From a virus: DNA of 25,246 nt. Both the position numbers and the translations under genes were made by a program. Location of the stretch: the IMG/VR virus record IMGVR_UViG_3300026518_000363, positions 1 to 25,246 of that record; one strand, given 5' to 3'. This document shows, in pieces, positions 5,390 to 25,246 of this stretch. A model generated the notes under the pieces. That model saw nothing but the letters and a program-made list of their open reading frames with translations. It did not search any database and was not told the origin of the DNA. Within the stretch, counting starts at the first letter, position 1; each line of letters opens with the position of its first letter.

Positions 5390-5773
5390 ATGGGTAGCAC
5401 TGGCTCTGGAAGCTTCTCGGACTACCCCGGTTCGCGCCCGAAAGAGGGGGGCGAGGGAACCGGGGGTGGCGGCGCAAGTGGGGAAGATCGCTGCGCCCGC
5501 GCATTCTCTTGCGCCCTCGAAGAGGTTGAGCAGTGTGACTACTTTTCCGCGAATGGAGGCGTTCCTCCGACCAACACCGCGTTAACAATCGAGCAGCGTG
5601 GCCGGCTGTTCGCCGTCGACGCGAGCGGCCAAACCGTTGGGGCGCTGCCCACCAGATTCAACTATCTCGCAGACTGCATGGTTGCAGGCTTCACCTATGA
5701 GGGGCGCGTCATTTCATCGGCATCGGCTCCGGTTGCATCGGTCAACGTGGACTTTGCGCCGCGGACGCCATGA
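5390..5773 (+). CDS. Small Met-Gly protein with Gly/Ser-rich N-terminal tail (unknown family)
   Basis: The chosen start is ATG 5390 because GAGGGA at 5380-5385 is a ribosome binding site; an earlier in-frame TTG (5378) lies on top of it. The 127-residue product opens MGSTGSGSFSDYPG and stays Gly/Ser/Glu-rich and presumably disordered to about residue 33. A compact domain follows with CARAFSCALEEVEQCDYF (35-52), four cysteines (35, 41, 49, 96) and beta strands to the end. Met before Gly should be removed by methionine aminopeptidase, exposing an N-terminal glycine on a flexible arm. The stop overlaps the next start (ATGA 5770-5773), so it is co-produced with the kinase/transferase fusion. I do not recognise a named family. 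As I recall, QatB proteins of the QueC-containing Qat defence system also begin Met-Gly with a Gly/Ser-rich tail. A substrate or effector role for the QueC-like enzyme is inference. Confidence 0.75.
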   Translation: MGSTGSGSFSDYPGSRPKEGGEGTGGGGASGEDRCARAFSCALEEVEQCDYFSANGGVPPTNTALTIEQRGRLFAVDASGQTVGALPTRFNYLADCMVAGFTYEGRVISSASAPVASVNVDFAPRTP

Positions 5774-7101
5774 GTACTAGGCAAGACCTTCTGCTGGTCG
5801 GCGAGGTCTATGTAGATTTCACCCTTCCAAATGCAGGTGCTGAAAGTAAACTACGACTCGGCGGCATCGTTCACGCGGCCCGCGGGCTATGGGCAATTAA
5901 CGCGAAATTCTCCGTGGCCGCTGTATGCCCCGGCTATCTGGTCGCTCAGGCGCAAGCCTACCTCGAACTCTTGGGATGCAGCGAATTCATCTGGCTGGCA
6001 GAGATCAAGGGCGCACCCAACGTCATGGCGATTGGCGATCCAACCGAACTCGCGGACCAAGCCTATCAAGATATCCTGAGGGACGAAAAATCCGTCGAAT
6101 ACCGCAATGAAGTTGACGCACTTAAGACATTCAAAACTTGTCTGATTTTCCCTGGAAAGTACGACCTCACGGTCTTGAGATCCCTACTTGCCGAGGAAAT
6201 TCAGGCAAGCTTCGATATCGCCTATGATCTTCCGGACCTTCAATCGCTCTCATCGTTTAAGGGCAATATTGCCGCCATAATGACTTCTACATCGTCTCCA
6301 TTGTTCTTAGATAAAGCAGCAGAGGACTTGTCGGGCTTGTTGTCTGAATTGCGGGATCTGTCGCCGCAAGCCATTCTTCTGAAGGAAAATCGAGGCGGCA
6401 GCCGTGTGTTCGATCTTCGCGGTGACAAAGTCGACGAGATCCCGGCGCTCCTCGGCGAAACCGTCAACTCGGTCGGTGTCGGTGACGTTTATTCAGCGGT
6501 TTTCGTGTCCATGCTGGGTTCAGGCGTTATTGATGCCGGATGGAAGGCAGCGCGCGCTGCAACGTGCTATGCCCACACGACCTACCCGGACGACTTCAAG
6601 AGAGATGTCCAGCGCAGCCTCGCGCTCTCCGTCGACCAAATGCGCGGCCTAGGCGGAACAGTTCTGCCCTGGCATGAACGGCCTGCCTTCCAGATATATT
6701 TCGCCGCTCCCGATTTTTCTTACGTCGACCGCACGCAGATCGATGAAGCACTTCAAGCGCTTGCCTATCATAATTTTCGGCTTCGCCGCCCGATACAAGA
6801 GAACGGAGAGCTATCCCCACAAAGCTCGATGCATGAAATGCGAGCCGCATATCTGGGTGACTTGGGACTTTTCGAGGAGTGTGATCTTGTGTTTGCACTG
6901 CCACTGGAGCGCGATCCTGGCACTCTCGTTGAAATTGGCCTGGCTCTTGCGCTTAAGAAGCCTGTGATCACATTTGATCCGCTCAGAGAGAATACCAACA
7001 CCATGGTGATAGCGGGTAGCACCGTCTATTCGGACAAGCTCGATACCTGCCTGAACGGACTCTTCGAAGTTATGTCTAGACTAAGGGCGACATGCTCATG
7101 A
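5770..7101 (+). CDS. PfkB-like sugar/nucleoside kinase fused to nucleoside 2-deoxyribosyltransferase-like domain
   Basis: A 443-residue two-domain protein. Residues 1 to about 290 look like a PfkB/ribokinase fold: a first strand DLLLVGEVYVDFTLP, the substrate-side GG motif (RLGGIVHAARG, 29-39) and the anion-hole/catalytic motif in variant form GVGDVYSAVF (236-245, usual GAGD; Asp239 is the likely base). Residues about 305-443 match nucleoside 2-deoxyribosyltransferases: FQIYFAAPDF (307-316), CDLVFALP (371-378) and DPGTLVEIGLALA (382-394) with Glu388 where the family keeps its nucleophile. Such enzymes exchange or hydrolyse bases on (deoxy)ribosides; kinases of this fold phosphorylate sugars or nucleosides. 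The combination suggests the cassette makes or handles a modified nucleoside. It overlaps both neighbours by four bases. Both activities are inferred from motifs; the true substrate is unknown. Confidence 0.75.
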   Translation: MSTRQDLLLVGEVYVDFTLPNAGAESKLRLGGIVHAARGLWAINAKFSVAAVCPGYLVAQAQAYLELLGCSEFIWLAEIKGAPNVMAIGDPTELADQAYQDILRDEKSVEYRNEVDALKTFKTCLIFPGKYDLTVLRSLLAEEIQASFDIAYDLPDLQSLSSFKGNIAAIMTSTSSPLFLDKAAEDLSGLLSELRDLSPQAILLKENRGGSRVFDLRGDKVDEIPALLGETVNSVGVGDVYSAVFVSMLGSGVIDAGWKAARAATCYAHTTYPDDFKRDVQRSLALSVDQMRGLGGTVLPWHERPAFQIYFAAPDFSYVDRTQIDEALQALAYHNFRLRRPIQENGELSPQSSMHEMRAAYLGDLGLFEECDLVFALPLERDPGTLVEIGLALALKKPVITFDPLRENTNTMVIAGSTVYSDKLDTCLNGLFEVMSRLRATCS

Positions 7102-7718
7102 AACAGGCTGTAGTCATGGTCTCTGGCGGACTCGATTCTACGACGGTCTGCTATCTGCTGGTCAGCGAGGGGACGGAAGTTCATCCCATCTTCTTCGACT
7201 ACGGGCAACACTGTGCCGAGACAGAATGGGCGAAGGTGCAGGAAGTCCTCCCGCAGGAGGCGATGCCCCCGGAGCGACTGAATATCTCGGACATCTTCAA
7301 GGGCTCGCGATCACGGATGATCTTGGAAGCAGATCTTTGGAAGGAAGCCGTCTCTGATGATGACTTGTACCTTCCGTACCGGACGATGCTGTTCTTCGCT
7401 GTGGCCGCAGCACGTGCCCAGACGCTTCGAATCCTCAACGTCTATTCAGGTTTCATCAACAGCAATCATGCCAAGGAAATAGATTGCAGCACCGAGTTCA
7501 TGAACGGTCTTGAAGAGCTTTCCCATGGCGTTGGCGCCGTGCGCTTCCATGCGCCTTTCCGCGAGAAGACGAAGACCGACGTCGTTCGACAAGCTCTGGC
7601 GCTTGGGGTGCCTATCGGCCGAACATTCTCCTGCCAGGTGTCAAGTTCGTTTCCATGCGGGGCCTGCCCCAACTGCGTAGAGAGGCTGAATGCCTTGGCA
7701 GACGCTGGCATAGCGTAA
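7098..7718 (+). CDS. QueC-like PP-loop ATPase (7-cyano-7-deazaguanine synthase family)
   Basis: A 206-residue protein from ATG 7098, which overlaps the preceding stop as ATGA and has TAAGGG (7082-7087) at a normal distance; ATG 7092 is possible and adds two residues. It has the PP-loop VMVSGGLDSTTV (SGGLDS at 9-14), DYGQHCAETEW, and the C-terminal zinc site with Cys179, Cys187, Cys190, Cys193 (CGACPNC), as in QueC. Housekeeping QueC turns carboxy-deazaguanine into preQ0 using ammonia and ATP. There are no queD, queE or folE genes here, and the neighbours are defence-like, so a specialised role is more likely. QueC-like proteins are accessory enzymes in type IV CBASS (Cap9) and Qat (QatC); from memory, Cap9 attaches a deazaguanine to the N-terminus of the CD-NTase. 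Loss of the last step (amide to nitrile) cannot be judged from sequence alone. Confidence 0.88.
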   Translation: MKQAVVMVSGGLDSTTVCYLLVSEGTEVHPIFFDYGQHCAETEWAKVQEVLPQEAMPPERLNISDIFKGSRSRMILEADLWKEAVSDDDLYLPYRTMLFFAVAAARAQTLRILNVYSGFINSNHAKEIDCSTEFMNGLEELSHGVGAVRFHAPFREKTKTDVVRQALALGVPIGRTFSCQVSSSFPCGACPNCVERLNALADAGIA

Positions 7719-7733
7719 ATAGGAATAATTGAA

Positions 7734-8393
7734 GTGACAAGAAACCTGAACAATTCAGACGTTCTGTATGCCGCCCGGCGTATTGCCGACCATGCTGTTC
7801 GAACCGGTGTTCTGGGATCGCGCGTCGCTTTCAGACCCGTCTATAGGCACATGGGCGCCGTACTTGCTGACTCGGTCCTACAAGCCGGACTGAACTATGC
7901 GAAAGTTGTGAAGCCCCGCATTGCCTCCATTCTTAAAACCTACCCACGCGCCACAACCATGAACATCTTGATGGGGGTGATCGAGCAAGAGGGAAGCCCG
8001 AAGTTCCTGCAATGGCAGCATCGGGAGAAGGTTTCACGCTTTGACAATTTGGTCGCCTTTATGGTCGAGGCGGAAATTGATAGCACATCCGATCTGGGCA
8101 GAGCGCTACAGGACAAAAGCTTTCGGAGGGATATCCGGCATGTGAGAGGGGTCGGCCCAAAAACCGTTGATTACATGGCCTGCCTGGTGGGTATGGATTG
8201 CATCGCTGTAGATCGTCACATCCGTGGCTTTGCTGAGCTCGCCGGATTGGAGGACGGCAGTTACGATTTTCTCCGTGAAGTGTTCAGCTTTGCTGCGGAC
8301 TTACTATCAATCTCTCGACGTGAATTGGATGCGAGTATCTGGCGCTATCAGTCAGAACAAACAGCGCGACAACTATCTCTTGAGTTCATTTAG
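7734..8393 (+). CDS. Helix-hairpin-helix DNA glycosylase/lyase-fold protein (OGG-like)
   Basis: A 219-residue protein from GTG 7734 with AGGA at 7721-7724; it follows QueC by 15 bases. The middle of the protein carries an HhH-GPD signature: IRHVRGVGPKTVDYMACLVG (134-153) followed by AVDRHIRGF (158-166). Lys143 and Asp160 sit where OGG/EndoIII-type glycosylases keep their Schiff-base lysine and catalytic aspartate, 17 residues apart. There is no iron-sulfur cysteine cluster, unlike EndoIII. The family removes damaged bases from DNA and nicks the backbone. In type IV CBASS an OGG-like gene (Cap11) accompanies the QueC-like gene, which makes this pairing suggestive. It could act on modified nucleobases, on invading DNA, or be a non-catalytic partner. 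It is the last gene of the cassette. Confidence 0.72.
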   Translation: MTRNLNNSDVLYAARRIADHAVRTGVLGSRVAFRPVYRHMGAVLADSVLQAGLNYAKVVKPRIASILKTYPRATTMNILMGVIEQEGSPKFLQWQHREKVSRFDNLVAFMVEAEIDSTSDLGRALQDKSFRRDIRHVRGVGPKTVDYMACLVGMDCIAVDRHIRGFAELAGLEDGSYDFLREVFSFAADLLSISRRELDASIWRYQSEQTARQLSLEFI

Positions 8394-8907: not shown

Positions 8908-9846
8908 ATGGCACGCGCCCAAGGCGCGCGGTCGCAGCTGGCGGCCGCGTTTGAAACCACCTATGGAACCGCACCGGCGTCCGGCTTCATGCAGATGCCC
9001 TTCGCCAGCGCTTCGCTGGGGGCTGAACAGCCGCTGTTGGCCTCCGAGCTTCTGGGCTATGGCCGCGATCCGCTGGCCCCGATCAAGGATGCGGTGACGG
9101 TTGATGGTGATATCAAGGTGCCGCTTGATGCCGAGGCCTTCGGCTTCTGGCTGAAGGCCGCGTTCGGCAATCCCACCACCACCGGCACCACCAACAAGAC
9201 GCACACCTTCAAGTCGGGCTCCTGGAACCTGCCCAGCATGGCGATCGAGGTGGCGATGCCGGAGATCCCGCGCTTCGCAATGTACACCGGCTGTGTGCTG
9301 GACCAACTGAGCCTGCAGATGCAGCGCTCGGGGCTGCTGACGGCGGACGTCAAGCTGGTGGCGCAGGGCGAGAATGTCGCAACCACCACGGCCGCCGGCA
9401 CGCCCACGGGCTACGCCCTGCAGCGGTTCGGGCATTTCAACGGCGCAATCAAGCGCAATGGCACCGCTCTGGGCAACATCGTCTCGGCGGACCTCACCTA
9501 TGCCAACAATGTCGAGCGGATCGAGATCATCCGCAACGATGGGCGCATCGACGGGGCCGACCCGTCCATCGCCGCGCTCACCGGCAAGATCGACGTGCGC
9601 TTCGCCGACACGACGCTGATGGACCAGGCGCTGAATGGCAGTTCGGCGTCGCTGGAATTCTCCTGGGTAATTTCGGCCAATGTCAGTCTGACCATCACCG
9701 CCCATGCCGTCTACCTGCCGCGACCGCGGGTGGAAATCCAGGGACCGCAGGGCATCCAGGCCAGCTTCGACTGGCAGGCGGCCTATGACTCCGTGGCCGG
9801 GCAGATGTGCACGGTCGTTCTCAAGAACCAGGTGGCGAGCTACTGA
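8908..9846 (+). CDS. Major tail tube protein
   Basis: A 312-residue protein with a strong ribosome binding site (AGGAGA at 8898-8903). It is rich in beta strands with Thr, Gly and Ala, contains the segment GYGRDPLAPIKDAVTVDGDI (about 50-69), a central part like SADLTYANNVERIEIIRNDG and ends with VVLKNQVASY. The pattern and the place before a G/GT-type chaperone pair and tape measure fit a tail tube subunit of siphophages. At 312 residues it is longer than lambda gpV (246), in keeping with an added domain. Two bases separate its stop from the chaperone start. Confidence 0.75.
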   Translation: MARAQGARSQLAAAFETTYGTAPASGFMQMPFASASLGAEQPLLASELLGYGRDPLAPIKDAVTVDGDIKVPLDAEAFGFWLKAAFGNPTTTGTTNKTHTFKSGSWNLPSMAIEVAMPEIPRFAMYTGCVLDQLSLQMQRSGLLTADVKLVAQGENVATTTAAGTPTGYALQRFGHFNGAIKRNGTALGNIVSADLTYANNVERIEIIRNDGRIDGADPSIAALTGKIDVRFADTTLMDQALNGSSASLEFSWVISANVSLTITAHAVYLPRPRVEIQGPQGIQASFDWQAAYDSVAGQMCTVVLKNQVASY

Positions 9847-9847
9847 C

Positions 9848-10285
9848 ATGCTGAAACTCGATCTTTCCAATGAACCCGCGTGGCTGGACCTCGGTCATGG
9901 CGTGCGGGTGTTTCTTACCCCGCTGACCACGGCAATGATGGTGGCGGCGCGGGGTGACCCGGCCGTGCAGGCCTTGTCCGAGGACGCCACCGACGAGGAA
10001 AACGCGCTGGCCTTTGCCAGGGCGCTGGCCAGGGTGGCAATCCTCGACTGGGAGGGTGTTGGCGATGCCGACGGCAACCCCATCCCCGTCAGCCCCGAGG
10101 CCATCGGCGCCCTTCTCGATCTCTGGCCGCTCTTCGAGGCCTTCCAGACCGGCTATGTGGCGAAGGGCCTCCTGCTGGAGCAGGAAAAAAACGCCTCATC
10201 GCCCTTGCCGACTGGGTCTTCGGCGGGGGCGATGGGTACTGCGACGCCTGCCCGCAAACCTGCCCCAACTGCCCGCAAGTCCTGA
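9848..10285 (+). CDS. Tail assembly chaperone, short form (lambda gpG-like)
   Basis: The 145-residue zero-frame product starts at ATG 9848. Residues 1 to about 114 form a plausible globular helical domain (for example AMMVAARGDPAVQALSED and AIGALLDLWPLFEAFQTGYV). After the A7 run the frame goes into a low-complexity Ala/Pro/Ser/Thr tail (SSPLPTGSSAGAMG, then ARKPAPTARKS), which looks like translation of another gene's frame. This is the layout expected for gpG, made alone most of the time and as a gpG-T fusion when ribosomes slip by -1. Such chaperones bind the tape measure and recruit tail tube subunits. Confidence 0.7.
   Translation: MLKLDLSNEPAWLDLGHGVRVFLTPLTTAMMVAARGDPAVQALSEDATDEENALAFARALARVAILDWEGVGDADGNPIPVSPEAIGALLDLWPLFEAFQTGYVAKGLLLEQEKNASSPLPTGSSAGAMGTATPARKPAPTARKS
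10186..10192 (+). promoter_or_regulatory. Probable -1 ribosomal frameshift site (A AAA AAC)
   Basis: The heptamer A-AAA-AAC lies in the correct phase (GAA-AAA-AAC codons at 10184-10192) for simultaneous -1 slippage, the canonical X-XXY-YYZ form. The -1 frame is open from here to TGA 10528-10530 and encodes a sensible protein, whereas the zero frame becomes low-complexity. Lambda-like phages use such a site between G and T just before the tape measure. A stimulatory stem-loop downstream was not identified by eye. Confidence 0.75.
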
Positions 10286-10530
10286 ATGCGCCGCAGACGT
10301 ATGAGGGCGTGCAGGTCTGGGACCTGGTGGGGCGCCTCGGAGGTCAGCTGCGCGTGGCCCCCTCGGGCGGGATCATTGGCTGGGACATGAGCGCTGCACT
10401 GGCATTGACCGGGGCGCTGGGTGTGCCGGGCGTTGCGGTGGCGGAACTGCTGCCCGCGATCGAGGCGGTGATGGTCGTGAAGCTCAATGAGCGGATCACT
10501 GATGCTGCCGGGGATGACGTCAGCCCCTGA
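10192..10530 (+). CDS. gpT-like C-terminal extension of the tail assembly chaperone (frameshift product)
   Basis: Read in the -1 frame after the slippery heptamer, this segment adds 112 residues to the first 115 of the upstream frame, giving a fusion of about 227. It opens RLIALADWVFGGGDG, then a four-cysteine cluster CDACPQTCPNC that looks like a small metal-binding knuckle, then YEGVQVWDLVGRLGGQLRVA and helices ending in DAAGDDVSP. The only internal ATG (10387) comes far too late to make the whole segment alone, which supports frameshift expression. In lambda the T domain of gpGT contacts the tail tube protein. Its last 11 bases overlap the 3' end of the opposite-strand vapC. Confidence 0.7.
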   Translation, partial: RLIALADWVFGGGDGYCDACPQTCPNCPQVLNAPQTYEGVQVWDLVGRLGGQLRVAPSGGIIGWDMSAALALTGALGVPGVAVAELLPAIEAVMVVKLNERITDAAGDDVSP

Positions 10531-10900
10531 CCTTCTCGATCAGGGTTACGCCGGGCAGGCCATCGAAATGCGCATCACAGGTCACCAACCCGGCGCCGTG
10601 GGCGCGGGCCGTGGCGAAGATGATCGCATCTGCCGTGGCCAGCCTGTGTTCGCGGCAGGCATCCGCTGCCGCCAGCGCGATCTCGGTGTCGAGCGGCACG
10701 ACATGGCAGACCTGGGTGAAGGCAATGACCTGATCGGCCTTGTCCTCGCCCACCTCGCGGGTCAGCCACTTGGCAAGCTCGAGCTGGACCATGGTCGGCA
10801 CCAGCCAGTCGGCTTGCTCGGGCAGATGCGCCTCGACCTTGTCGCCGGTGGGCGAGCCGATCAGCCATTCGATCCAGGCCGAGCTGTCGACGAGCACCAT
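10520..10900 (-). CDS. vapC: VapC-type PIN-domain toxin RNase
   Basis: A 126-residue PIN-domain protein on the - strand. The acidic metal-binding residues are present: Asp5 (MVLVDSSAWIEW), Glu41 (VQLELAKWL), Asp91 (ATADAIIFATA) and Asp109 (LVTCDAHFDGLPGV). VapC toxins cleave RNA, often initiator tRNA or rRNA loops, when freed from their antitoxin. Its start shares a base with the vapB stop (TGATG on the - strand), the usual coupling. It sits in reverse orientation between the chaperone and tape measure genes, so it is a moron gene unit not belonging to the late operon. It may stabilise the prophage or act in phage exclusion. Confidence 0.92.
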   Translation of the reverse strand: MVLVDSSAWIEWLIGSPTGDKVEAHLPEQADWLVPTMVQLELAKWLTREVGEDKADQVIAFTQVCHVVPLDTEIALAAADACREHRLATADAIIFATARAHGAGLVTCDAHFDGLPGVTLIEKVRG

Positions 10901-11112
10901 CAGAAGCGATCCGCGTGATCGCGGTAATCCTCAGGGTTGGCGCCCTTTGCCAGTCCCTTGAGGTCGTCCTTGTCCGGCACGGGCACCAGCAGCACGCCGG
11001 TCCCCTTGGGGATGAAGGCGAATGTCAGTCCGGCCTCCCAATGCTGGGCGCTGCGGATCGCCTTGGGGATCGAGATCTGGAACTTGGAAGACAGTCGGGC
11101 GGTTTCGGGCAT
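10900..11112 (-). CDS. vapB: VapB/AbrB-type antitoxin
   Basis: A 70-residue antitoxin. The start at 11112 is chosen because it gives the classical swapped-hairpin AbrB/MazE N-terminus MPETARLSSKFQISIPKAIR, with AGGT upstream; a longer version beginning at 11163 would run through the promoter region. Residues 1-45 form the DNA-binding dimer domain, and the C-terminal part (LKGLAKGANPEDYRDHADRF) is the tail that occupies the toxin active site. The protein normally represses its own operon with VapC. An inverted repeat directly upstream is the candidate operator. Confidence 0.88.
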   Translation of the reverse strand: MPETARLSSKFQISIPKAIRSAQHWEAGLTFAFIPKGTGVLLVPVPDKDDLKGLAKGANPEDYRDHADRF

Positions 11113-11113
11113 T

Positions 11114-11151
11114 GTCTTACCTGCGGTTGATCGTTGCCCATAACGTAAGAC
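11114..11151. promoter_or_regulatory. Inverted repeat, candidate VapBC operator
   Basis: Perfect 7-base arms GTCTTAC (11114-11120) and GTAAGAC (11145-11151) are separated by 24 bases, just upstream of the vapB start on the - strand. The arm spacing (31 bases centre to centre, about three helical turns) suits two AbrB-type dimers on one DNA face. The outer arm overlaps the proposed -10 region, as expected for autorepression. Confidence 0.5.
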
Positions 11152-11170
11152 GAATAGCCCCACATTTCAA
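11142..11170 (-). promoter_or_regulatory. Candidate vapBC promoter
   Basis: On the - strand TTGAAA (11170 to 11165) and TACGTT (11147 to 11142) are spaced by 17 bases, matching five and three of six consensus positions. It lies about 30 bases before the vapB start and overlaps the inverted repeat arm. The -10 match is weak, so this is tentative. Confidence 0.35.
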
Positions 11171-11182
11171 GGAAGCCGAACA

Positions 11183-13330
11183 ATGGCAGAAAAACGCGTC
11201 TCCGTCCGCCTGGCGGCGGTGGGTGGCAAGCAGGTGCGGGCCGAGCTGGAAGGCATCGGTGACGCTGGCAAGCGCGGCTTCGGCAAGGCCTCGCGCGAGA
11301 TGGAGATCGCCAACGCCAGGCTCGCGAAGTTTGCCCGGCGCGCAAAGATCGCCGCCGGCATCATGGCCGCCGCTGCCGTCTCGGCCGGTGTTGCCATGGT
11401 GCGTTCCGGCCTGCAGGTGATCGACGAACAGGCCAAGCTGGCCGCCAGCCTCGGCACCACGACAGAAAGCCTGCAGGTGCTGGCGCGCGCGGCCGAACTG
11501 GCGGGCGTCTCGCAGGGCGAGGTCGAGCAGGCGACGATCATGATGACGAAAAGCCTGTCTCAAGCCGCCCAGGGCACCGGGCCGGCGGTGAAGGCGCTCG
11601 AGCAACTGCACCTGTCGGCCAGCGATCTTGCCAAGCTGCCGATCGACGAGAAGCTGACGGTGATCCAGGACGCCATCCAGCGTTACATCCCCGCCGCCGA
11701 GCGCGCCGCCGTCGCCTCGCAGATCTTCGGGGCGCGGGCCGGGTTGATCTTTTCGCGCATCGACAGCGCCACCTTGCGCCAGGCGACGCAGGACGTGAAG
11801 GATTTCGGTGTCGCGGTCTCGGAACAGGACGCGGCGCAGATCCAGCGCACCAACGATGCGCTCTCGCGCATGGGGCTGCTGTGGCGCGGCATCGCCAACC
11901 AGCTGGCCGTGGCGGCCGCCCCGGCGCTCGAGGCGATGGCGGATGCCTTTGCCACGGTGGCCAAGACCACCGGCCCGCTGGGGCGCGCGATCAGGGGGCT
12001 GTTCGATCATATCGGAGAACTCACCACCATCGCCGCTACCTTCGCCGGGGTTCTCGGCGTGCGCCTTGTTGCCTCGCTGACCGCCGCGGCGTTGGGCGTC
12101 GGCAAGCTGGCGCTGTCGATGAAGGTCCTGCGCGCGGCCATTATTCGCACCGGGCTCGGTGCGTTGATCGTCGGCGCGGGCGAACTGATCTACTGGTTCG
12201 GCCGGCTGGTGAAGGGCGCCGGCGGGTTCGGGAAGGCGCTCGGGCTTCTCAAGGACGTGGCTGCCGAGGTCTGGACCCGCATTGGCGATGGCGCCTGGAG
12301 CATCGTTCTGCGCATGCGCGCCGTCGGCAATCGCCTCAAGGCCACCTGGTTCGACGCGCTCGCCACCATGCAGGACAAGTGGGCACGGTTCCTCAAGACC
12401 ATCTCCGGCGCGCTGTTCAGGATCCCCGGCATGGACGGGTTGGCGATGGATATCGGGTTCGATGCCGCCTTCGCCGGTCAGGCCGTCGATCAGCTGCGCA
12501 AGACGGCGGACGAATTCCGTTTCTACGCCGGCAATCTCGGCGACCAGGCGGATATCCTGGCCGGTAACATCTCCCGGCCGCTCAAGTCCATGACCGCCCT
12601 GCGAGACGCGATGAAGGGGGCGGGCGAGGATGGCGCGGACGCGCTCGCGCGCACCAGCGATGCCGCTTCCCGGCTGGCCACGAGTGTCGCCAACGCTGGC
12701 GGCGCGGCTGCGCGGACGGCCGAGGTGGCGAAGTCCGCCTGGGAAACGGCGGCCACATCACTGAAGGATTACGCGACAAAGGCGATGGAGCTCGGCAAGG
12801 GGCTGGGCGACACGCTGGTGAGCGCATTCTCGAGCGCCGAACAGGCCATTGGGGAGTTCGTCCGCACGGGCAAGCTGGACTTCCGGTCGCTGGTCACCTC
12901 GATCCTGGCCGACATGGCGAAGCTGTCGGCGCGCCGTTTCATACTCGGGCCGCTGGCCAATTTGCTGTCCGGCGCGATGGGTTCTTTGGGGGGCATCTTC
13001 GCGCCGGTGCTGCATTCCGGTGGCATTGCCGGAGGCGCGGCGCCCACCCGAATGGTTCCCGCTGCGGCCTTTGCCGGAGCACCGCGCATGCATTCGGGCG
13101 GCGCTGTGGGCGCTCCCACCTGGGCGGGTCTGCGACCGGACGAGGTGCCTGCGATCCTGCAGCGGGGTGAACGGGTGCTGAGCCGCCGCGAGGTAGCCGC
13201 AGGTGTCGGCGGCACACCGAACATCACCGTCAACATCAACACCCGGGACGCCGAGAGCTTCCGCCAGTCCCGCGCCCAGGTCGCAGCCGACATTGCCCGC
13301 GCGGTGTCGCTGGGCCGCAGGGGGCTCTGA
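11183..13330 (+). CDS. Tail tape measure protein
   Basis: A 715-residue protein, the longest in the core tail module after the tail tip. It begins MAEKRVSVRLAAVGGKQVRA, typical of the tape measure family of GTA-like and Rhodobacterales phages, then has an amphipathic helical region, a hydrophobic stretch (IAAGIMAAAAVSAGVAMV, about 56-73) and a long hydrophobic central zone (about 280-345). The middle and late parts are helical with heptad-like patterns and many Ala. The C-terminal 120 residues are Gly/Ala-rich with MHSGG-type turns, then VNINTRDAESFRQSRAQVAA. It sets tail length and is injected ahead of the DNA. At 715 residues, with about 1.5 angstrom per residue, the tail would be roughly 100 nm. 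It lies 71 bases from the divergent vapB. Confidence 0.88.
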   Translation: MAEKRVSVRLAAVGGKQVRAELEGIGDAGKRGFGKASREMEIANARLAKFARRAKIAAGIMAAAAVSAGVAMVRSGLQVIDEQAKLAASLGTTTESLQVLARAAELAGVSQGEVEQATIMMTKSLSQAAQGTGPAVKALEQLHLSASDLAKLPIDEKLTVIQDAIQRYIPAAERAAVASQIFGARAGLIFSRIDSATLRQATQDVKDFGVAVSEQDAAQIQRTNDALSRMGLLWRGIANQLAVAAAPALEAMADAFATVAKTTGPLGRAIRGLFDHIGELTTIAATFAGVLGVRLVASLTAAALGVGKLALSMKVLRAAIIRTGLGALIVGAGELIYWFGRLVKGAGGFGKALGLLKDVAAEVWTRIGDGAWSIVLRMRAVGNRLKATWFDALATMQDKWARFLKTISGALFRIPGMDGLAMDIGFDAAFAGQAVDQLRKTADEFRFYAGNLGDQADILAGNISRPLKSMTALRDAMKGAGEDGADALARTSDAASRLATSVANAGGAAARTAEVAKSAWETAATSLKDYATKAMELGKGLGDTLVSAFSSAEQAIGEFVRTGKLDFRSLVTSILADMAKLSARRFILGPLANLLSGAMGSLGGIFAPVLHSGGIAGGAAPTRMVPAAAFAGAPRMHSGGAVGAPTWAGLRPDEVPAILQRGERVLSRREVAAGVGGTPNITVNINTRDAESFRQSRAQVAADIARAVSLGRRGL

Positions 13331-23332: not shown

Positions 23333-23571
23333 AGCGCGATCTTCGCCTGTACGTTGCCGTTATCACGCATCATCGCCCATGAGATAGTCCCGGTTCACTC
23401 GGGCCCACCGATCCGGCAGTCTCTCGCATGAGATCCCATTCGGCGCCCGGTCGAAATGGGGGCGCGTCTGGGAGACAGATCCTACGAGTTTTGAATATTC
23501 TTGCGCTAAAACGGCTTGCATTCTCTCAACTATATTTACAGGCCATCGTTTCTCCTGTTTCGCTTCACGAC
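23333..23571. other. Intergenic debris at the prophage edge
   Basis: There is no credible complete gene. On the - strand, 23440 down to the stop at 23365-23363 reads ISCERLPDRWARVNRDYLMG and DDA, possibly the last 25 codons of a truncated gene. CATGAGAT occurs twice (23369-23376 and 23427-23434). GC falls sharply after about 23480. The first copy of the 17-base direct repeat lies here. Confidence 0.4.
23447..23463. repeat. 17-bp direct repeat, copy 1
   Basis: CCGGTCGAAATGGGGGC, identical to 23692-23708 and in the same orientation. Copy 2 sits just past the transposase fragment, where the end of an IS3-family element is expected, so this copy may mark the end of another deleted element. Confidence 0.7.
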
Positions 23572-23690
23572 ACCGTTCTCAAATTGATCGGAGGCTGGAT
23601 CAAGGACTATAATGAAAACCACCCGCACTCGGCCCTCAAGTGGCGCTCGCCCCGCGAGTTCCGAAAGGCTAATCCGAAACCGCTCAGATG
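23572..23690 (+). pseudogene. IS3-family transposase (OrfB) C-terminal remnant
   Basis: This frame encodes TVLKLIGGWIKDYNENHPHS followed by ALKWRSPREFRKA, the unmistakable end of the IS3-family integrase-core transposase (consensus WIxDYNxxHPHSALxxxSPREF). The catalytic DDE region and everything upstream are absent: the sequence before about 23566 in the same frame has no integrase features. The open frame runs from 23428 to 23841 but only this part is transposase. It is a non-functional scar showing that an insertion sequence took part in reshaping the prophage edge. Confidence 0.85.
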
Positions 23691-23691
23691 T

Positions 23692-23708
23692 CCGGTCGAA
23701 ATGGGGGC
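23692..23708. repeat. 17-bp direct repeat, copy 2 (probable IS end)
   Basis: CCGGTCGAAATGGGGGC lies right after the last conserved transposase codons and is followed by CGGTTTAG. The location fits the right terminal sequence of an IS3-family element. An inverted partner was not found in the window, as expected if the left end was deleted. Confidence 0.6.
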
Positions 23709-23716
23709 CGGTTTAG

Positions 23717-23782
23717 AATATTCCTTATCGCATAGAAGACGAACTGCCTGCTTGGAAATGCAAGAAGTGTGGAGAGATGTAA
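23717..23782 (+). pseudogene. C-terminal fragment of a small zinc-ribbon-like protein
   Basis: The frame reads NIPYRIEDELPAWKCKKCGE followed by Met and stop TAA 23780-23782. It begins against the proposed IS end, with TAG immediately upstream in the same frame. CKKCG is a half zinc-ribbon/rubredoxin-type knuckle near a C-terminus. It looks like the tail of a gene cut off by the insertion sequence. Only 21 codons support this, so it may be chance. Confidence 0.35.
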
Positions 23783-23798
23783 CCATTCGAAAGAATGG
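23783..23798. other. Perfect stem-loop after the fragment's stop codon
   Basis: CCATTC-GAAA-GAATGG: a six-base stem closed by a GAAA tetraloop starting at the base after the TAA. There is no following run of T, so it is not a standard terminator, though a weak 3'-end or stabilising role for the truncated gene's transcript is possible. Confidence 0.35.
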
Positions 23799-23915
23799 AT
23801 ATGAGGGAGCAGAATATATAGTGACCTCGCGCTCTTATTGAAAATAGCATGCCTCCATAACCATAGAACGCAGCGAGAAGATATTCGCGACATAATAGAG
23901 AAAAGGTTTAAACAA

Positions 23916-24908
23916 ATGTGTGGACTTATTGGCTTTTTCGTTGGTTGTGATTTGACTATAACATGCCCAAAGAAAAACTTGTCCAATTGCTCTCGTCGTT
24001 ATCGATCTTCCTTTCAAAATTGGGATTCACGAGCATCGGTTCGCAGCGCGCAGAGACGAACAGATCAGGTAAAATCAATGTTATTCCCGGAAAGATATGT
24101 ACCCATTTTGAGACATTCCATGATTGGGGCGCTTGACCAAAGTGCTCACGAATTGTTGCGAAAAGCAGCGCTCTACAGGTTTCTAAACTTTACACACAAG
24201 CTAGAAATTCTGGTCGTCAATACGGTTACTGCGAATATAGCCCTAGGGCGGTACAATGCGGATTTTTCGGAAAACCTTCGACTGGACGCGCACCGAATTT
24301 ACGTCGATGAAGCCTATCATGCATTGTTTTCCTTTGACCTAATGAAACGGATCAAAGCTAGCAATGTGACCTCTGACGCGTTCCACGAAGACATTCCAGA
24401 GTTTATCCGCGGCATCAATAAGCTCGTTGAAGCCCACAGCGCTAATGATCGCGCATTGCTTGAACTCACAGCTGTCATCGTTTCGGAAATGCTAATTACT
24501 AGTACCTTGCGCGAGGCCACGTTGGAGCCTGACATGGATCAGGGCGTTGCTTCGATGATTGAGGATCATGCTAGAGATGAAGCAAGGCATCATGCCTTCT
24601 ATAAACATGTTCTGCTAGATCTTTGGTCTCAACTGTCCGATCATCAGCGCAACCTCGTGCTTAGGCACATCCATCCCTTCTTGGTGGCCTATACGGCACC
24701 TGACGAACAGGCGCTTAGGACCGAATTGCGTTCTGTAGGATTGACCGAAGATCAAGCCCGTCTAGTTATTGCCGAGACCTATGATCCTCAAACCGTCTCT
24801 GAATATGCAAATGCGTGCGGCAAGGGAATTTTTGCCACGTTTGAGGAGTTGGCGGACCCACGGGACTTCGCACGCGTGTCCGAACACTTCTCTATGCTGC
24901 CCCGTTAG
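23916..24908 (+). CDS. AurF-type non-haem diiron oxygenase
   Basis: From ATG 23916 (AAAAGG at 23901-23906) the product is 330 residues. All seven ligands of the AurF diiron centre can be placed: Glu97 (KLEILVVNTV), Glu132 and His135 (VDEAYHALF), Glu191 (VSEMLITS), His218, Glu222 and His225 (DHARDEARHHAFY). Their spacings almost equal AurF (101, 136, 139, 196, 223, 227, 230). The segment YRSSFQNWDSRASVRSAQRR before them is also family-like. AurF oxidises an aryl amine to a nitro group; relatives act on other substrates, so the substrate here is open. The start is uncertain: residues 1-25 (MCGLIGFFVGCD...) do not look like the family, TTG 23838 also keeps the frame open, and an ATG in another frame (23963) gives MPKEKLVQLLSS, which could be the original start before a frameshift. 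Low GC sets it apart from the phage. Confidence 0.82.
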   Translation: MCGLIGFFVGCDLTITCPKKNLSNCSRRYRSSFQNWDSRASVRSAQRRTDQVKSMLFPERYVPILRHSMIGALDQSAHELLRKAALYRFLNFTHKLEILVVNTVTANIALGRYNADFSENLRLDAHRIYVDEAYHALFSFDLMKRIKASNVTSDAFHEDIPEFIRGINKLVEAHSANDRALLELTAVIVSEMLITSTLREATLEPDMDQGVASMIEDHARDEARHHAFYKHVLLDLWSQLSDHQRNLVLRHIHPFLVAYTAPDEQALRTELRSVGLTEDQARLVIAETYDPQTVSEYANACGKGIFATFEELADPRDFARVSEHFSMLPR

Positions 24909-24924
24909 GAAGGGATTTGTTGAT

Positions 24925-25246
24925 ATGACTGTTGCAGACAAAGAAAAGAGCACGGTAATCGATGCTGCAGGTGACGGTATCGAGGTCAAACCCGCCCGCT
25001 GGACTTTCGGGGGCAATGTGGCGGATAAGTTTAACGATCATGTATCCAAATCGGTCCCACTATACGAAAGTGGCCACGATCTTACAGTCAAGTTGTCGGA
25101 TTTCTTCATTAAACCGGATTCGACGGTTTACGAACTGGGCACCTCCACCGGTACGCTGCTGCGCAAGCTTGCAGACAGGCATAGCGATCAAAAGAACGTC
25201 CGTTTCTTTGGTCTAGAGGCCGAACCCGATATGGTCAACTACGCCA
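24925..25246 (+). CDS. SAM-dependent methyltransferase, CmoA-like (3' partial)
   Basis: From ATG 24925 with AGGAAGGG (24907-24914), 107 residues are visible before the window ends. The N-terminal part has WTFGGNVADKFNDHVSKSVP then LYESGHDLTVKLSDFF, and the SAM-binding motif I VYELGTSTGTLLRKLA (about 71-86), then FFGLEAEPDMVNYA. This is the plan of CmoA and related class I methyltransferases, in which FxxHVxxSxPxYxxGH precedes the Rossmann fold. CmoA makes carboxy-SAM for tRNA wobble uridine; relatives act in natural-product pathways. It follows the diiron oxygenase by 16 bases, so the two are probably co-transcribed. Whether it is a tRNA enzyme or pathway-specific cannot be told. Confidence 0.78.
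   Translation, partial: MTVADKEKSTVIDAAGDGIEVKPARWTFGGNVADKFNDHVSKSVPLYESGHDLTVKLSDFFIKPDSTVYELGTSTGTLLRKLADRHSDQKNVRFFGLEAEPDMVNYA

Follow-up and report, generated by a model that had tools for sequence, protein, structure and literature searches.

A probable programmed -1 ribosomal frameshift and a conserved cysteine cluster in the tail assembly chaperone gene of a phage of Rhodobacter-type bacteria

Comparison of sequences makes it almost certain that one gene of the phage described here yields two tail assembly chaperones by a programmed -1 ribosomal frameshift. The gene lies in a window of 25,246 nt, by which we mean the whole stretch of virus DNA that was analysed; its ORF list contains siphovirus head and tail genes, and the host of the phage is a Rhodobacter-type bacterium. 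The slippery site, its phase and conservation, the switch of the constrained frame at that site, the missing start of the second product and the selection on a downstream hairpin are established by sequence. The features on which the argument draws are the following.

8908 to 9846, + strand: major tail tube protein, directly upstream of G (Phage_tube_2, PF18906, E 1.6e-61)
9848 to 10285, + strand: G-like tail assembly chaperone, zero frame, 145 aa (phrog_313, E 1.1e-23)
10186 to 10192, + strand: slippery heptamer A AAA AAC in the X XXY YYZ phase
10192 to 10530, + strand: T part, -1 frame, 112 aa plus stop (DUF7697, PF24752, at residues 55-104, E 8.9e-22)
10193 to 10237, + strand: hairpin, proposed stimulator (conserved core 10200-10211 paired with 10220-10231; 7-nt spacer from the heptamer)
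10193 to 10285, + strand: zero-frame C-terminal tail, 30 codons plus stop, overlapping the hairpin and, in the other frame, the Cys cluster
10240 to 10272, + strand: Cys4 cluster C-x2-C-x3-C-x2-C, putative zinc knuckle (T residues 17, 20, 24 and 27)
11183 to 13330, + strand: lambda-like tape measure protein, downstream (phrog_8462, E 9.6e-136; Tape_meas_lam_C, PF09718)

Gene order and the slippery heptamer

The zero frame of G runs from the ATG at 9848 to the TGA at 10283-10285, and its product belongs by its phrog_313 match to a known family of tail assembly chaperones; a profile search matched G to no Pfam family. The gene is placed between the Phage_tube_2 gene upstream and the tape measure gene downstream, as G/GT pairs require. 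Near the 3' end of G the zero-frame codons read ...CAG GAA AAA AAC GCC..., and the A AAA AAC within them is correctly phased for tandem slippage by -1, as a preliminary description of this DNA had claimed. The heptamer start given there, 10184, is in fact where the GAA codon begins, the true start being 10186.

The occurrence of AAAAAAC is not rare in itself, with one copy observed in the window and 0.70 expected; what stands above chance is its place, its phase and its conservation. The junctions of 257 distinct relatives carry AAAAAAC in 245 cases, GGGAAAC in four, AAAAAAA in three and AAAAAAT in one, all in the same register, which confirms the conservation that the preliminary description had proposed to check. 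Among the remaining four of the 257, GGGAAAC lies one codon off the inferred register in two and the heptamer is absent in the other two. The sequences of the relatives have 67% GC, and AAA accounts for 33% of their Lys codons and GAA for 42% of their Glu codons, so that codon choice provides no explanation for the A run.

Since a run of seven A residues exists, RNA polymerase might stutter on it and produce some mRNA with T in frame with G. We consider such transcriptional slippage very unlikely, because the relatives with GGGAAAC lack a long run and retain both the frame relation and the register; this replacement changes an amino acid and keeps the slip, a sign that slipping itself is under selection and an argument against a polymerase that stutters on the A run. 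In addition, the phase always suits tandem tRNA slippage, and the spaced downstream hairpin suits ribosomal shifting. That a sequencing or assembly artefact within the A run conceals a truly continuous gene has a negligible probability: homopolymers invite errors, and one relative (L010) is one A short, but T stands in this -1 relation to G in 108 of the 110 loci of the first set, which come from many metagenomes as well as isolate genomes, and the relatives thus refute this explanation. The base losses in L010 and in L074 were themselves judged to be likely sequence errors.

Prokaryotic shift heptamers predicted elsewhere include A_AAA_AAC (PMC3711429). According to a review, A_AAA_AAC shifts less readily in E. 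coli than A_AAA_AAG does (PMC5009743), and this lower shiftiness counts against the frameshift reading. An upstream Shine-Dalgarno-like stimulator, which is optional, showed no enrichment, the mean match being 3.45 observed and 3.29 expected.

A search of isolated phages at the DNA level found nothing, and the protein search returned 15 records; both parts are present in eleven Rhodobacter capsulatus phages, one Synechococcus phage and one Nostoc phage. Genomes of Rhodobacterales and Rhizobiales contain many relatives. For RcKemmy and RcOceanus, GenBank gives the second product as a two-piece joined CDS, annotated as a tail assembly chaperone, with GGGAAAC at the site. The Nostoc and Synechococcus phages (L110 and L111) have a tail module of the alphaproteobacterial type, in which gene layout and junction sequence are the same, and their cyanobacterial host labels may merit checking.

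Several other features of the window were recorded. A VapBC-like toxin-antitoxin pair (10520-11163, - strand), with a PIN domain and an AbrB/MazE-like partner, separates T from the tape measure gene; its PIN gene and the end of T share 11 bases, and the pair is found close behind T in approximately 30 relatives with up to 88% identity. A cassette (5770-8393, + strand), flanked by the head-tail genes and by the tail terminator gene, encodes QueC, an OGG-like protein and a nucleoside 2-deoxyribosyltransferase that also shows weak similarity to PfkB, with matches to the PADLOC models QueC and OGG. It resembles type IV CBASS accessory genes, no nucleotidyltransferase was seen, and it recurs in one relative (L197) at 84-92% identity; it is possibly phage-borne defence or nucleotide-modification cargo. 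We dropped a tie between QueC (queuosine, tRNA-Asn wobble) and the heptamer's Asn codon, since among the loci then fetched only L197, besides the window, has QueC, and nearly all share the heptamer. After the tail genes (23428-25246), reading of the ORF list by eye revealed a fragment like the end of an IS3-type transposase and then ORFs that are not phage-like (23838-24908 and 24769 onward), which may be cargo or host flank.

The T part and its cysteine cluster

From 10192 the -1 frame reads CGC CTC ATC... and continues to a stop at 10528-10530, so that the predicted fusion comprises G residues 1-115 followed by the 112 residues of T. The preliminary description had regarded this frame as a plausible domain of 112 residues containing CDACPQTCPNC, and the DUF7697 match supports it as a domain, with a profile score of 77.2 bits against a curated cut-off of 27. 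T also matches phrog_11212, which is labelled as of unknown function; a search of NCBIfam found no match. An AlphaFold2 model of T is confident (pLDDT 88.8), and the viral predictions nearest to it include enterobacterial phage tape measure chaperones (Foldseek E ~0.01); no convincing solved relative was found by sequence, and a Foldseek search with the model gave no significant match in the PDB. The gene pair suggests a function for DUF7697 and phrog_11212, namely that of the T half in a tail assembly chaperone.

The sequences also reveal where the constrained frame changes. Before the heptamer, most differences between the relatives and the window are at zero-frame position 3 (51-56%), whereas from +1 onward most are at zero-frame position 2, equivalent to position 3 of the T frame (51-53%). 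The most variable codon position therefore moves at the heptamer itself, indicating that the constrained frame changes there. The zero-frame tail after the slip is ASSPLPTGSSAGAMGTATPARKPAPTARKS, rich in A, P, S and K, in agreement with the low complexity noticed in the preliminary description. It is 30 codons long in 192 of the 257 relatives and has shrunk to one codon in a sister clade, and it is thus probably dispensable.

T might instead be a gene of its own, translated from a separate or re-initiating start, as in the records of Nostoc phage Nsp-JY21 and Synechococcus phage Sc-Yong805-1, which give T as a separate short CDS. Four observations make this extremely improbable: in the window no ATG, GTG or TTG occurs in the -1 frame ahead of the Cys cluster, the first being the GTG at 10309, past the cluster; 99 of 102 distant relatives have no start within -60 to +30 of the junction; conservation of the T frame begins at the heptamer; and an own start would leave the conserved heptamer unexplained. 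The preliminary description had named relatives free of the A run and with a separate T start as the finding that would speak against a frameshift. The relatives without the A run carry an in-phase GGGAAAC and have no T start beside the junction.

The phase, the conservation of the heptamer, the frame switch and the joined GenBank CDS consequently lead to a classical G/GT programmed -1 frameshift. The lambda-style G/GT logic proposed at the outset is thus upheld, with the gene order, phrog_313, DUF7697 and the lack of a T start all in accordance with it.

The cluster CDACPQTCPNC occupies T residues 17-27 in the window. Its four Cys residues are invariant in 72 of 72 aligned T parts, along with W8, G13, Y16 and P28, and the loop between the two CxxC motifs has three residues in 72 of 92 sequences, with a range of 3-15. 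At the level of sequence, an invariant CxxC...CxxC with a variable loop is the pattern expected when a zinc knuckle has a free loop. Distant T parts retain the four Cys residues with a longer second spacing, e.g. YCRGCREDGAPCARGQPGLSGERCP in L305, and the cluster is absent from L295 and L296, in which the T part is DUF1799. The earlier wording of a 'metal-knuckle-like element' therefore holds as far as the conserved Cys4 cluster is concerned; the metal is a prediction from this pattern, and the segment probably binds zinc.

The downstream hairpin

Folding of the region behind the heptamer, which the preliminary description had suggested as a check for a stimulatory structure, gave a stable hairpin. 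Its main stem starts 6-8 nt past the heptamer in most relatives, within the 5-9 nt expected of stimulators. We scored the hairpin against T frames recoded with synonymous codons at background usage, and obtained a mean z of -2.44 in 63 nonredundant relatives, with 84% at p <= 0.05, against 0.14 and -0.25 for control regions. The codons themselves are unusual: the middle Gly of the GGG motif is encoded by GGG in 221 of 229 cases, compared with 12% of Gly codons elsewhere, and the Leu5 codon is CTC or CTT, although the commonest Leu codon is CTG. The stem is thus stronger than synonymous recoding predicts, which at the sequence level is selection on the hairpin, and the hairpin would be expected to raise shifting.

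The alignment supports the same core. In a fixed register, the core pairs are standard in 92.5% of cells (59 sequences), compared with 44-59% in slid registers; a group with a 6-base insertion in the loop was left out of this alignment and folded separately. Changes on both sides of the stem amount to eight cells in four pairs, and true covariation is therefore modest. RNAalifold, run on alignment A4, did not choose the stem as the consensus and returned a weak, different structure instead, for which reason we relied on the fixed-register pair counts and on synonymous recoding. No Rfam family matched, and three relatives (L075, L378 and L354) are without a strong hairpin.

The hairpin signal could conceivably be a by-product of overlapping coding constraint, with the heptamer alone mattering for shifting, given that the zero-frame tail overlaps the stem and that the Ala-Leu-Ala and Gly-Gly-Gly motifs are partly complementary by themselves. 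We regard this as unlikely, because the signal was scored against synonymous recoding of the T frame, and because L322 and the L278/L301 group build the hairpin from different bases. As the zero frame overlaps the stem in the main clade, we also inspected the sister clade, in which the zero frame ends one codon past the slip, and the hairpin is still favoured there (mean z -1.7 in 17 sequences; controls 0.07 and -0.58).

Proposed mechanism and comparison with known systems

The scheme that we infer, including the shift itself, its rate, the zinc binding and the partner proteins, is as follows. Most ribosomes would finish G at its own stop and give a short chaperone, made in excess, which would coat or bind the tape measure protein, by analogy with lambda (PMC5009743). 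A minority of ribosomes, delayed by the hairpin 6-8 nt downstream, would slip on the heptamer from AAA-AAC to AAA-AAA and give the G-T fusion. The T part of this fusion, with its Cys4 knuckle, probably zinc-bound, and DUF7697, would recruit the tail tube protein, again by analogy with lambda (PMC5009743). We propose more tentatively, at slightly less than an even chance, that in this group of alphaproteobacterial phages the T zinc knuckle is essential and is the means by which the rare G-T fusion engages the protein of the tail tube or the tape measure, and that the conserved stimulatory hairpin directly ahead of the knuckle sets the G:GT ratio.

If this is true, neither the role of the zinc knuckle nor the ratio-setting hairpin would have been described before for the tail chaperone system; we found no description of the invariant Cys4 cluster or of the conserved hairpin in open-access papers. 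G/GT frameshifting itself is textbook knowledge, and homologues are already annotated. The hundreds of relatives, many of them Rhodobacterales or Rhizobiales prophages, constitute a large and clean data set of a recoding signal whose downstream hairpin is amenable to synonymous mutation tests. In addition, gene callers that start T at the internal GTG miss the Cys cluster.

Lambda G/GT, whose slip site is GGGAAAG, resembles the present gene in its position between the tail tube and tape measure genes, in its short G product and -1 G-T fusion and in having the heptamer near the end of G. It differs in that the gene described here has A AAA AAC, a 30-codon zero-frame tail and a conserved strong downstream hairpin, and a T part that, unlike lambda T, bears a Cys4 cluster and DUF7697. 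In lambda, G binds the tape measure protein and T the tail tube protein, and neither is found in the virion (PMC5009743).

RcKemmy gp15-16 and RcOceanus gp14-15 (MW677517 and MW677520) are homologous to the window over G (43-46% identity) and T (52-53%) and share its Cys4 cluster and hairpin, but have GGGAAAC in place of AAAAAAC. GGGAAAC is also found, in the same phase as the heptamer of the window, in L295 and L296, which unlike the window have no Cys4 cluster; there a zero-frame TGA immediately follows GGGAAAC, and the DUF1799 T part is entered at that point. The DUF1799 (PF08809) T parts, as in these two and in HK639-like phages, have a weak profile overlap with DUF7697, which suggests that both may belong to one superfamily of T domains. 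The -1 element of E. coli dnaX, an A-rich heptamer and then a spaced hairpin, is similar in both respects, but differs in that no upstream Shine-Dalgarno-like element is enriched here. The heptamer, which the preliminary description had called different, does differ from that of lambda but is not new, as A_AAA_AAC is already known from the g-t site of HCTV-2, a haloarchaeal tailed virus that shares the heptamer with the window (PMC5009743).
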